NCBI GenBank assembly: GCA_913054135.1
Contig: CAJXJK010000009.1
Span: 1 to 64,000 of the forward strand
Direction: 5' to 3'
Length of the DNA: 64,000 nt
Source of the DNA: an uncultured Flavobacteriales bacterium
GTDB taxonomy: Bacteria > Bacteroidota > Bacteroidia > Flavobacteriales_D > Crocinitomicaceae
Below are positions 11,768 through 46,164 of the stretch, one piece after another (the stretch's first letter is position 1; the number at the start of each line of letters is the position of its first letter). The notes under the pieces were generated by a model, which was not told the origin of the DNA, made no database searches, and worked only from the letters and a program-made list of their open reading frames with translations. The translations under genes were made by a program, and so were the position numbers.

Positions 11768-12268
11768 ATGAAAAATTTATTTTCGGCATTTGTTGCCATG
11801 TCTGTTTTAACTGTTGTTGGATGCTCGGCATCTTCAAAAGCGAACCAAGGTGAAATAAACAATCGTGAACCTGAAAAAACAAAGACTTATAAGGTCGGAG
11901 ATCATGCTTTCGGAGGAACCATTTTCGTTATTAACGAAGACGGAACTCATGGCCTTGTTTGTGCTAATCAAGATCAATTTGCTAATGCTTCTTATAATGA
12001 ATGTACTGACATGATGAACAACCCACTTTATCATGATAAAGATGGCAAGGCTTACTTTGACTGGAGATTACCAAAAGTATGGGAAGCTTATCAAATGTAT
12101 ATGGCCCTTCATTTAATTAATCACGGAGACTTTTCAAGTTCAGGGTATTGGACTTCTCAAGGACCAAGTTCTTTTGATAAAATTTCAGTTGTAAATTTCT
12201 CTAACGGGCTAGAATTCACTTCTTTAAAGTCTGACACATATAGGGCAAGAGCAGTTAGATCATTTTAA
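11768..12268 (+). CDS. DUF1566-like lipoprotein
   Basis: A 166-residue protein with a lipoprotein signal (VVGCSAS lipobox, Cys 19). The mature part ends in the pattern of DUF1566/Lcl-type domains: DWRLPKVWEAYQMY, GYWTSQGPSS and a terminal RARAVRSF. Such domains occur in surface proteins; no function is established for this one. It starts directly after the OmpA/PD40 gene, so the pair is likely one operon. Confidence 0.7.
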   Translation: MKNLFSAFVAMSVLTVVGCSASSKANQGEINNREPEKTKTYKVGDHAFGGTIFVINEDGTHGLVCANQDQFANASYNECTDMMNNPLYHDKDGKAYFDWRLPKVWEAYQMYMALHLINHGDFSSSGYWTSQGPSSFDKISVVNFSNGLEFTSLKSDTYRARAVRSF

Positions 12269-12464
12269 TTTATTTTTTTTCCAACCTTTCATTTTATCGT
12301 GCATCTTAGAGGTGTATAAATGTCGGTCTTAGTTGACCATCTTCATTTGACAAGGTAGTAGCTGTTATATCTAAAAGACAATGATCTTGAACTTTAGATA
12401 AAATTGAAGTTTTTCTCATAGAAACGTTTAGCATTTATACCAGTTAACCAAAATTAACTGCATT

Positions 12465-12502
12465 AAACCAAGAACTTGAAACCCGGTTCTTGGTTTTTTT
12501 TT
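12465..12502 (+). terminator. Intrinsic terminator between convergent genes
   Basis: AAACCAAGAAC (12465-12475) pairs perfectly with GTTCTTGGTTT (12486-12496), followed by a T run to 12502. It lies about 200 nt after the DUF1566-like gene and just before the 3' end of the minus-strand gene that ends at 12508. Confidence 0.85.
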
Positions 12503-12507
12503 GCCCT

Positions 12508-13908
12508 TTACTTTAGGATGTAACGTATAGAAGTGAATACACCAAACTCACGATTTGACGTGTAATTGAGGTCAGAAGATATTTGACCATTACCATTGTA
12601 GATATTAAGCAATCCTTGCTCAAAATTCAGGCCTGTTTCAAAAATGAAGTTACCCACTCTAAACTCAGGTCCAAGCTGAACAAAAACACCTACATTATGA
12701 TTTGCATATAAATCATTAAGAGAAGTCAACACATCACCCGTTGATGTGTAAGATGACATTATGTTTGAATAGCTAACTCCTAATTTAGACTTAAGAAAAC
12801 CATTTCTATTTTGAACACTTATCGGCTGTGAATATGAAGTTGACAATCCAACTTTCAAGTAGTTAATCTCACTCTCTTTCTCTTGATAAAACCCATTACT
12901 GTATACACCCAACCTGTTTCGGCTATTACCATTTGCAAAAGAAACTTGACTTGACCATCTTTCGCTCCAATTAATTTCTCCTTGAACTCCGAAAAATCCT
13001 CCCAAAGAGAATTTTGATGAAGAAATAGTGTTCTTTTCTAAAGCATTTCTTGTTTCAACATCTCTTAACCAAGTCCTATTCGCTCCGGCAATTAAACCAA
13101 GGTTAAATCCAAAGCTTCTTTTTTGAGAAGGCTTTTGTAATTCAATTGTCGGAATTGATTGGACAGTTGAAAACAAATCAATCTTTTGAACTTTACTCAA
13201 TTCATGTCTTTGCGTGAGAGCAACTCTATCTATTTCGTTATTGTCATCAACAAAGGCAGGCAACACAGGGTTTTGAATTACAGAATTGTCAATGATATCG
13301 ATAGGATTAATTAAAGAGTTGTCTGCCAATAAATTTGAGCTTTCAACGGATCCATTATCCTGAATTGTTTCATTCGATACTAATAAAGCTTCATCTGCCT
13401 TATTAGTAATACCCATTTCATAGAGATTACTATCAAGCGTTAATTGAGGCACGAAGCTTACTATTAATACTGCCGCAGCAACTGAGACAGCTCTTCTCCA
13501 TGAATTTGATTTAACAACTATGTTTGAAGAGATATTTTCCCAAACATCTCCAATAGTTAAACCGTCATGTACTTTTTCCCAACCATCTACTGGAGCCGAA
13601 ACAACAACTTGCTCGAAACTATCTTTGACAACCTTGTCTATCTTAGAAGTATTGATTTGACTGAAATCAAAAGCAGGGGCAACAAAAGTTTGAGACTCAA
13701 AACTATTTTTCACTGCTTCATCAAGAGGAGAATTGTTGAGCTTTCCAAAGTCAAAAGCAGGAGCACTGAATTTTTGAGATTCAAAACTATTCTTTACCGC
13801 TTCATCAAGAGGAGAATTGTTGAGCTTCTCAAAGTCAAAAACAGGAGCTTTGAAGCTTTGAGATTCAAAACTTTCTTTAATTTTCGCTATGTCCTTTTCA
13901 GTTTTCAC
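12508..13908 (-). CDS. Anti-sigma-like repeat protein fused to outer-membrane beta-barrel
   Basis: A 466-residue protein. Residues 13-124 hold four copies of a 28-residue unit (start points about 13, 41, 69 and 97) with the pattern SFE..F.AP.FDF..LN.SPLDE.V. The fourth copy is divergent and contains the APVDGWEKVHDGL motif seen in Bacteroidota anti-sigma-like proteins. One transmembrane helix follows (about 138-156), then a periplasmic linker, and from about residue 262 a porin-like barrel (FGFNLGLIAGANRTW to a terminal FGVFTSIRYILK). It overlaps the ECF sigma gene by 4 nt. I infer that the repeats contact the sigma factor in the cytoplasm while the barrel sits in the outer membrane. No family name is certain. 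Confidence 0.7.
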   Translation of the reverse strand: MKTEKDIAKIKESFESQSFKAPVFDFEKLNNSPLDEAVKNSFESQKFSAPAFDFGKLNNSPLDEAVKNSFESQTFVAPAFDFSQINTSKIDKVVKDSFEQVVVSAPVDGWEKVHDGLTIGDVWENISSNIVVKSNSWRRAVSVAAAVLIVSFVPQLTLDSNLYEMGITNKADEALLVSNETIQDNGSVESSNLLADNSLINPIDIIDNSVIQNPVLPAFVDDNNEIDRVALTQRHELSKVQKIDLFSTVQSIPTIELQKPSQKRSFGFNLGLIAGANRTWLRDVETRNALEKNTISSSKFSLGGFFGVQGEINWSERWSSQVSFANGNSRNRLGVYSNGFYQEKESEINYLKVGLSTSYSQPISVQNRNGFLKSKLGVSYSNIMSSYTSTGDVLTSLNDLYANHNVGVFVQLGPEFRVGNFIFETGLNFEQGLLNIYNGNGQISSDLNYTSNREFGVFTSIRYILK

Positions 13909-14438
13909 TTCTTATTAAAAGCTATTTTTAATAAAGTACGAGCTCGGTTCAATTGAGATTTTGACGTCCCAACAGTGATACCCATAATTTCAGATATTTC
14001 TTGATGCGTATAACCTTCAATGGCAAATAACTTGAGAACCATTGCTGATTTACTAGGCAGGTCATTCACCTTGGCAATTACTTCAGCCGACGGAATCAAT
14101 TCCATGTCAACTTCATGCTCAGGTAACTCTTGCATGTATTCTATATTTTCTAAAGCTTCATTAAATCGTTTCTTCTTTCTCAAAATGGACAACGCTGAAT
14201 TCACCATTATCCGTCTAACCCATCCTTCAAATGAACCATTGAAGCCAAATAAATGCAACTTAGAAAACACTGTCAAGAAACCATTCTGAAGAAAATCAGC
14301 TGCCTCTTCTCTATCTGCAGCATAATGCATGCAAACAGAAAACATCTTATCAGCATACAGTTTGTATAATTGCTCTTGAGCCGACCTTTCGTCATTCAAG
14401 CACTTTGAAATCATTATTCTAACTTCTTCTTCGCTCAA
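13905..14438 (-). CDS. ECF-type RNA polymerase sigma factor
   Basis: A 177-residue sigma-70 factor with region 2 (about 20-90: LYKLYADKMFSVCMHYAADREEAADFLQ...FNGSFEGWVRRI) and region 4 (about 120-172: VLKLFAIEGYTHQEISEIMGI..GTSKSQL). It has no region 1 or 3, as in ECF factors. It should direct transcription of an envelope-response regulon. It sits between a lipoprotein gene (4-nt overlap upstream) and the repeat-barrel protein (4-nt overlap downstream), so all three are one operon and the barrel protein is its probable regulator. Confidence 0.92.
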   Translation of the reverse strand: MSEEEVRIMISKCLNDERSAQEQLYKLYADKMFSVCMHYAADREEAADFLQNGFLTVFSKLHLFGFNGSFEGWVRRIMVNSALSILRKKKRFNEALENIEYMQELPEHEVDMELIPSAEVIAKVNDLPSKSAMVLKLFAIEGYTHQEISEIMGITVGTSKSQLNRARTLLKIAFNKK

Positions 14439-15115
14439 TTTTTGAAAATTGCTTTGTTATCTTCAGGTATATTTGACAATACCGAATTATAAATAGACTG
14501 ATTGTTCGTAGAGTTAATAACTATAACATCCACATTATTCTCCGTAGTCAAGTCTGCCGAAGTCCACATCAAAGCTGTGATTTCAGAAAACCAATGAGCA
14601 ACATTGAGTTGCACATCTACTTTTTTAGGAAGATTTTTATCCAGATTAATCGTACCCAAGCCTTCAAAGTCTTGGCCAATTACATTAAAATCAACCTCAC
14701 TGTCAACTTCTAATCTAACGTCAACATTTAATGGTCCATCAATATATTTTCCTTCTAATTCTAAACTATGGTGAGCTTGGTTAGAAATGGTTGAAAAATC
14801 TAACAACACCTCAGAATATTCACCTTGTGGTAAATTATAATCCAATTCCTTTATTTCACCCGATCCATTTACATCAGTTGTGAGATTATTAGGAAAGGTT
14901 CGCATAAACGAAATATCGTCTCCTTCTATTCTATCACCGCTAACGTCAAAATTGAGTAGGTTAATTTCACCACTCTGAATCTTGAGTGGGTCTTGGCCCT
15001 CTGTTGCAATCATTTCGAATGCAAAATTCACATCAACTGGCTTTTTTAGCTCCGCTTTTTTGCACGAAACCAATCCCAAGGAACCAATCAATACTATTTT
15101 AATTATCTTCTTCAC
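14435..15115 (-). CDS. DUF4382-like lipoprotein, first gene of the sigma operon
   Basis: A lipoprotein whose mature part opens with DVNFAFEMIATEGQDP and later has YNLPQGEYSEVLLD, a beta-rich pattern like Bacteroidota DUF4382-type proteins. The frame is open to 15178, but a GTG at 15115 gives a normal lipoprotein signal (KKIIKIVLIGSLGLVSCKK). The longer form would place an unrelated aromatic stretch in front of it. It overlaps the sigma gene by 4 nt. It may report on, or be a target of, the sigma pathway, but that is inferred from position only. Confidence 0.7.
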   Translation of the reverse strand: MKKIIKIVLIGSLGLVSCKKAELKKPVDVNFAFEMIATEGQDPLKIQSGEINLLNFDVSGDRIEGDDISFMRTFPNNLTTDVNGSGEIKELDYNLPQGEYSEVLLDFSTISNQAHHSLELEGKYIDGPLNVDVRLEVDSEVDFNVIGQDFEGLGTINLDKNLPKKVDVQLNVAHWFSEITALMWTSADLTTENNVDVIVINSTNNQSIYNSVLSNIPEDNKAIFKN

Positions 15116-15485
15116 ACTCTGTAGATGCTTAAAAATACAAAAAGGTTGTAAAAAAATCAAGGAAATTGCAATAACCACGATTGTTCACAAATCATTGACA
15201 TATCAAAATCAAAGCTTCACAAACAGTAATAAGGTGTTCATCTCTATAATATTTGTGTTAATCGAAATGTATGGTGTTTGATAAAAATTCTCAAGCGCGA
15301 AAAAATTATTTGTGCCTTTTCATGAATTTAAAGAGGACTGCTCTGGTTGGCGTGAAGCCCCCTTTTTTACTATCTAAATGAAAATCAATTGTTAACAGTA
15401 ATTTAATTTGTGGATAAAAGAAGGCAGAATATTTTTTCTATGAATTCGTTCTCCCATAAATTGCGGCAACAACAACCTCATTATT
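15116..15485. other. Intergenic region, no gene found
   Basis: About 370 bp between the divergent lipoprotein-sigma operon and the small plus-strand gene. It is very AT-rich and must hold both promoters, but no clean TTG/TAnnTTTG pair stood out. A G/C-richer patch at about 15330-15370 ends in a short T run, but its stem is too poor to call. I see no coding frame, tRNA or repeat. Confidence 0.5.
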
Positions 15486-45802: not shown

Positions 45803-45867
45803 AAAATTAACAAAAGTCTTCCAACCTTGTGACTATCTTCGCGTCTTCTTTTAGCACAGCTACTACT

Positions 45868-46164
45868 ATGAGGAGAGGATTTCTAATTTCAATATTGTTT
45901 TTATTTCCATATTTTGGATATACACAACTAGATTGTGATTCTTTAGAATGCGCTAAATATGCGGACACCTCTTCGTTTGTAATCCTTGGTTTAGCTGAAC
46001 AAACAGAAACGTCAACACCAAATACCAACTACATGATTTCATGTAAGATGTTGTGTGAAATTGAAGCTGCGAGATCAAATTTTGCTGACGTAACTGTTAA
46101 TATTAGAAACTACAGTGTTCTTATCTATAAAAGAGAAGAACAAGAAATGGTAAAAGAGAAATAG
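45868..46164 (+). CDS. Small secreted protein
   Basis: A 98-residue protein with a signal peptide (ISILFLFPYFGYTQ) and a short Cys-containing mature part (LDCDSLECAKYADTSSFVIL, YMISCKMLCEIEAARSNF). No family recognised. The frame opens at 45829, but the ATG at 45868 fits the signal peptide. Its stop codon overlaps the GTG start of the next gene by one base, so the two are coupled. Confidence 0.6.
   Translation: MRRGFLISILFLFPYFGYTQLDCDSLECAKYADTSSFVILGLAEQTETSTPNTNYMISCKMLCEIEAARSNFADVTVNIRNYSVLIYKREEQEMVKEK

Follow-up and report, generated by a model that had tools for sequence, protein, structure and literature searches.

The locus lies in a 64,000-nt stretch of DNA from an uncultured Flavobacteriales bacterium (the whole stretch is referred to below as the window) and consists of a minus-strand operon of three genes, encoding in order a lipoprotein, an ECF sigma factor and a 466-amino acid partner protein, with a 4-nt overlap at each junction. 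The sigma gene (13905–14438, minus strand) begins with a TTG codon overlapping the stop codon of the lipoprotein gene, and its product contains the Pfam domains Sigma70_r2 and r4_2 (E values of 1e-10 for region 2 and 8.5e-13 for region 4) and matches the NCBIfam sigma70-ECF model with 81.7 bits. The partner gene occupies 12508–13908 (minus strand) and encodes a protein that resembles the dual-membrane anti-sigma factors known as Dma, with four units, a transmembrane helix, a disordered tether and an eight-stranded barrel. The span of these two genes (12508–14438) agrees with that given in an earlier note on this DNA. The lipoprotein gene, the first of the operon, was listed as an ORF at 14435–15178 (minus strand), and its true start is probably nearer 15115, right after the promoter motif described below. 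This gene, a promoter motif shared within the locus and a putative small RNA are additions to that note.

Hydropathy analysis identified a single hydrophobic stretch in the partner, with its peak at residues 140–158 (13435–13491, minus strand), and an AF2 model of the protein (16 sequences; mean pLDDT, 60.6) places a helix at residues 134–151. The following ~110 residues (151–261) form a disordered linker with pLDDT values nearly all below 50, and eight barrel strands, mostly with pLDDT values of 75–96, are predicted between residues 267 and 465. The barrel (residues 267–466; 12511–13110, minus strand) is OmpA-like, aligning with OmpA 9fzd (Z, 16.8; 3.2 Å over 170 residues) and 1bxw (Z, 15.6). 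At the sequence level its Pfam match is a weak one, with OMP_b-brl_2 scoring 26.7 bits against a cut-off of 27; the same Pfam model was matched at E 0.1 by only 3 of 16 relatives, and a sequence search of the PDB with the partner gave no match at E 1. Hydropathy, the AF2 model and the OmpA-like fold all support the description, made in the earlier note, of one inner-membrane helix, a linker and a barrel in one chain. Its further proposal that the protein spans both membranes is favoured by the model and by an architecture matching the Dma class of Bacteroides thetaiotaomicron, as far as that class is described in the available text of PMC13088901.

Self-comparison of the partner located four units ahead of the helix, namely unit 1 (residues 11–38; 13795–13878), unit 2 (residues 39–66; 13711–13794), unit 3 (residues 67–94; 13627–13710) and unit 4 (residues 95–122; 13543–13626, also located by a unit model), all on the minus strand. 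The starts of these units are spaced by exactly 28 residues, and self-identity at a lag of 28 is 41 of 56 positions, compared with a best value of 16 among 2000 shuffles, in agreement with the four 28-residue cytoplasmic repeats that had been noted previously. TRF reported an 84-bp repeat of 2.5 copies (score, 296), which a second repeat-finding scan did not pick up. Units 1 and 2 share 23 of 28 amino acids and 72 of 84 nucleotides, unit 3 shares 16 and 18 of 28 amino acids with units 1 and 2, respectively, and unit 4 shares 7–10 of 28 with the other units. The earlier description of the first three copies as nearly identical and recently duplicated therefore holds for units 1 and 2 but not for unit 3, which is of an FDF type whose APAFDF variant is also found in unit 3 of the congener L006. 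Unit 4 is canonical, with a tryptophan (W110), and units 1–3 carry F at the corresponding position; with the unit model, unit 4 scored 18.4 bits and units 1 and 2 about 3 bits, and unit 3 was not detected. In the AF2 model, in which the pLDDT over residues 1–120 is 41–68 (blocks of ten), a low-confidence helix precedes each AP motif, and the helix following the motif is full in unit 4, five residues long in unit 1 and absent in units 2 and 3. As modelled, the partner is thus a four-copy cytoplasmic part joined by an inner-membrane helix and a tether to an OmpA-like barrel.

A search for related loci with the partner alone found nothing, and loci were therefore collected with a sigma profile, yielding 80 named loci and, from additional genomes, further loci, a sample chosen for likeness to this sigma. 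In the 243-locus set, two loci had no sigma match and five no downstream ORF, and identical sigmas were counted once (229 and 154 left); among the 80 loci, the first downstream ORF was wrong in L060, which was replaced, and in L083, which was omitted from the unit scan. The unit model detected at least one unit adjoining the sigma in 308 of 383 distinct related loci, the numbers of loci with zero, one, two, three, four and five copies being 75, 256, 36, 12, 3 and 1, respectively. One copy is thus commonest and five the maximum, and these counts are lower bounds that miss divergent copies, the window itself having been scored as one. Many single-copy partners, such as that of L043, have a unit that makes up nearly the whole tail ahead of the membrane helix. 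Within the family, partner relatives were found in 10 of 150 genomes at E 1e-4 (own genome included); with the threshold set at E 0.001, each of the four genomes belonging to the genus had one. The earlier note had pointed to variation in repeat number as a check, and such variation exists: judged by eye, the three system-bearing species of the genus have four (window), four (L006) and three (L007) units, the middle one of L007 lacking the W, and most other relatives in the family have two, some of them degenerate. Five, four and three canonical units are present in the short partners of three Niabella loci (L051, L080 and L065, respectively), the C-termini of which are not barrel-like. Judged from these comparisons, the unit motif is a recurring cytoplasmic element among partners in this clade of sigmas. 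Most simply, it would represent their sigma-binding element, the number of which has changed repeatedly.

As a substitute for co-folding of the two chains, co-variation was measured between the sigma and the membrane-proximal unit. In set 1 (190 pairs; effective number, 137–140), the ten best couplings had a mean of 1.42. Global shuffling (25 runs) gave at most 1.19, and shuffling within clades, done 25 times under each of two groupings, gave at most 1.35 under either. The value of the single best pair was reached in none of the global shuffles and, for each clade grouping, in one shuffle out of 25. In set 2 (118 further pairs; effective number, 99), the same ten pairs had a mean of 0.215 compared with −0.018 for random sets, 2.1% of which were as high; none of 30 global shuffles attained the observed value, and one of 30 clade shuffles did. 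Only some pairs were retained in set 2 (among 3696 pairs, Q58-I19 had rank 23 and E54-P12 rank 36), and the pair that had been best in set 1 dropped to rank 3450. As a control, the ten best within-sigma pairs had a mean of 0.82 in set 2 against a spread of 0.34, indicating that the test has some but limited power. These results hint at a contact between the sigma and the unit. Together with the recurrence of the motif in the partners of related sigmas, this weak co-variation is in line with the view of the earlier note that the repeats are copies of an anti-sigma motif.

How the four copies would act together can be read in several ways. The earlier note suggested that one protein might hold several sigma molecules; the F in place of W in units 1–3 and the restriction of a full second helix to unit 4 speak against this. 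The units may jointly wrap one sigma molecule, gaining avidity at a stoichiometry of 1:1, which we regard as a serious possibility, although short of a likely one: in its favour, the couplings of set 1 reach both regions 2 and 4 of the sigma, but of the six best couplings of the combined set five fall in region 2, with the remaining one immediately ahead of that region, and a single detected unit is the commonest state (256 of 383). It is also conceivable, if rather doubtful, that only the membrane-proximal unit 4 binds the sigma and that units 1–3 are a duplicated spacer or degenerate copies. The unit-model scores and the full second helix favour unit 4 alone, and L007 likewise has a middle unit without W; however, the APAFDF form has been kept in the congener although the aligned partner is only 33% identical overall, the FDF-type units have here been multiplied rather than lost, and three to five canonical units are kept in Niabella and other lineages.

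The lipoprotein–sigma–partner triad recurs in Bacteroidota. Members of the lipoprotein family were found in 15 of the 80 named sigma loci (L017–L029, L038 and L057), that is, beside the 13 closest-ranking sigmas and two others; 3 of these 15 loci are seeds of the lipoprotein model, and two more, L017 and L022, are represented among the seeds by their copies (L008 and L011). In L019 and L021, the lipoprotein gene is placed between those for the sigma and the partner, and these loci were accordingly scored as having zero units in the automatic counts. The AF2 model of the lipoprotein has a mean pLDDT of 90.3. Pfam and NCBIfam gave no solid match, and Foldseek returned nothing below E 0.001. The nearest fold is that of MbnP (7l6g; Z, 8.5; 14% identity). 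MbnP and fimbrillin-like adhesins (Z, 6–8) were considered as identities and rejected, the scores being near the 'common' level of the tool. Additional proteins related to the triad lipoprotein are encoded in the flanks of L021 and L019, in some cases on the other strand, and the promoter motif lies upstream of two of these in L021. A second complete triad, with two units and a CGACT/CGGCT-type promoter, is present in the genome under study (L002/L003; contig C16, 15898–20154), where a downstream motif precedes small lipoprotein genes and not an RNA.

Comparison across the triads revealed an ECF promoter-like motif of the operon, CAACC-N15-GCATCTA, at 15122–15148 (minus strand). The general two-box form upstream of triads is CAACC followed, after 14–18 bases, by a CRNCT-like box; it was spotted through 6-mer counts and by eye. 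Of the 21 triad upstream regions, on which the motif was itself defined, 18 contain the loose form, whereas 300 shuffles gave a mean of 0.57 and never more than 3; the strict form occurs in 10 (shuffle mean, 0.00; maximum, 1). A gapped 4-mer scan of the same regions gave a top count of 9 (poly-T) and a count of 7 for the motif, compared with 6–7 in ten shuffles. For 65 other sigma loci, which were not used to shape the motif, the raw counts are 40 with the loose form and 4 with the strict one. System A (window, L006 and L007) has GCATC as its −10 box; in system B, as the genus's second triad is called here (L002, L015 and L022), the box reads CGACT or CGGCT. Within the window, the loose motif has five matches compared with 1.0 expected, a number reached in 1 of 100 shuffles. 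In the whole genome, the strict pattern has two matches (the site at 12279 and one after the second dma gene) versus one for the reversed control, and further matches to the system A motif numbered three in this genome (control, one), four in G004 (one) and three in G042 (none). The motif looks like an autoregulatory promoter of the sigma clade. Two other occurrences were observed. At 45819–45852 of the window (plus strand), TTCCAACC-N15-CGTCT stands just before a frame (45829–46164) that is followed by a 502-amino acid protein resembling, by eye, a type IX secretion substrate; this may be a regulon member or a chance match. In L015 (2819–3154) and L022 (7848–8184), the motif is repeated in tandem beyond the system B partner, its copies flanking a short frame, and small lipoprotein genes follow.

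Another copy of the motif, TTCCAACC-N14-GCATCTTA, lies on the plus strand at 12279–12308, between the convergent ends of a neighbouring gene (12268) and the partner gene (12508), and is followed by a putative sigma-dependent small RNA (12309–12500, plus strand). The latter contains GTAGTAGC (12355–12362), a hairpin (12441–12460) and an intrinsic terminator (12465–12496) of 12 pairs, the T run of which is confined to the plus strand, so that the ~190-nt stretch past the motif is terminator-ended; judging its frames by eye, it is apparently non-coding. The operon and this stretch thus share one ECF promoter motif. In L006 and L007, the motif is found at the same place, with GTAGTAGC and, at the start of a hairpin, an identical CCAGTTAACCAA; the terminator stems differ in sequence. 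A two-word RNA pattern was found in 3 of 150 family genomes, once in each of these three species, with one match of the reversed control (G074); the pattern was drawn from those three genomes, and only its absence elsewhere is informative. It is absent from the remaining congener, where the search for a system A partner was likewise negative. No Rfam family was matched at its gathering threshold, the best scores being 21.5 (gathering threshold, 60) for 12200–12600 of the window and 22.5 (47) for 7880–8100 of L027. Folded without the last 42 nt, the three window-type RNAs had z values of −1.0, −2.5 and +0.3, ordinary in two of the three, and a long-range helix considered for them was rejected as being within chance (P, 0.07, 0.17 and 0.68). 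Complements of the loop had 17 near-matches in the window, one being the RNA itself, compared with 9.3 expected; 17 was reached by 2 of 100 shuffles. Past the RNA terminator of L006, another promoter-like motif was seen at about 1200–1495, followed by a 44-codon frame for what appears by eye to be a small membrane protein.

A second RNA type, modelled from L027–L029, was found after the partner gene in 8 of 120 family genomes, all belonging to one other genus. In all eight, the promoter motif starts directly or one base past the stop codon of a 449–486-codon frame, the C-terminus of which matches the partners of L027–L029. Three spurious low-scoring matches to the model were left out, and L428 and L430, the scores of which equal those of L027 and L029, were treated as duplicates of these loci and omitted from the alignment. 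Among the nine distinct copies aligned, mean identity is 87% in the RNA body, 41% in the terminator region, 75% in the 3′ end of the partner gene and 20% after the terminator, and nine pairs have changed on both sides, all within the terminator stem. The word CAAGGTAG is common to both RNA types (L006 has GTAGTAGC only) and lies in a predicted hairpin in the second type; it may be a seed or due to chance. The record of L027 (CP034120.1) is titled Glaciecola amylolytica, a name that looks wrong, as its RNA score exactly equals that of G095, which belongs to the family of the window.

These data bear on the view that 12279–12500 is not an RNA gene, the hairpin merely terminating the flanking genes and the motif being a chance occurrence. 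The convergent arrangement and the three loose matches in the window beyond this one and that of the operon, which show that chance matches occur, would be expected under such a view, but the T run is confined to the plus strand, the CAACC box, GTAGTAGC and CCAGTTAACCAA are identical in the three species, the strict pattern exceeds its reversed control, if only by two matches to one, and in another genus an RNA immediately follows the dma gene. We therefore consider it unlikely.

Taken together, the locus probably encodes a sensor of the Dma type in which the sigma-binding motif has been multiplied and which controls a candidate small RNA within the locus. In such a system, the units would hold the sigma at the inner membrane, and the barrel would most likely report on the outer membrane, being changed by a loss of assembly, by a ligand or by the co-encoded lipoprotein. 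This change, relayed via the tether or by cleavage, would free the sigma, which would then switch on both the operon that encodes it and the small RNA next door; the latter would silence target mRNAs, probably those of envelope proteins. The role of the extra units is the step that we put forward most tentatively: if they have one, it is most likely to raise the number or the strength of sigma bound per barrel. That different units serve as a hub for different sigma paralogues is very improbable, since, although the genome has at least six sigmas of this clade and the chain contains two unit types, each of the six sigmas has a long ORF downstream that is possibly its own partner.

Anti-sigma factors spanning both membranes are already known as Dma1, Dma2 and Dma3, which act with Das sigma factors in B. 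thetaiotaomicron, and, according to the available text of PMC13088901, constitute a recent class whose sensed signal was left open. By architecture, they are likened to the partner in having an N-terminal anti-sigma part, one transmembrane helix, a long disordered tether, a C-terminal barrel and an adjacent ECF sigma gene, and Dma2 is, as here, encoded in a three-gene operon (PMC13088901, as far as available). Unlike Dma1–3 as described there, which have one N-terminal domain, the partner has four tandem putative sigma-binding units, and its locus also contains a lipoprotein family without a Pfam match and a small-RNA candidate. Searches of open-licence full text turned up no report of tandem sigma-binding units in a Dma-type protein and none of an RNA adjoining a Dma locus. 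In Flavobacterium psychrophilum, also a member of Bacteroidota, the ECF promoter motif SM6 precedes both the putative regulatory RNA Rfp11 and a sigma/anti-sigma operon, an arrangement similar to that proposed here; in the accessible part of PMC9723704, however, Rfp11 is one row in the SM6 promoter selection, and no tie to a barrel-bearing anti-sigma factor is described.

A minimal putative sigma-binding unit of ~28 residues, present in one to five copies, offers a compact system for measuring stoichiometry, and the recurring promoter motif would aid regulon prediction in Bacteroidota. If true, a sigma-dependent RNA beside an anti-sigma gene would add a post-transcriptional arm to the Dma class. 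In the sigmaE–RseA system of Escherichia coli, outer-membrane sensing likewise ends in an ECF sigma factor and small RNAs (MicA and RybB), but proceeds via DegS, RseB and RseP acting on a separate anti-sigma factor, whereas in the present system a single chain apparently spans the two membranes, and the RNA is in the locus. A more far-reaching scheme, which as a whole we hold to be speculative and rather unlikely, is a self-contained outer-membrane stress circuit of Bacteroidota, in which a two-membrane protein holds several sigma molecules on tandem motifs and the released sigma drives an adjacent RNA that silences envelope mRNAs via a conserved GGUAG-type loop. Such a circuit would be an independent analogue of sigmaE–RseA–MicA/RybB, in which evolution could tune the response through the number of motif copies.
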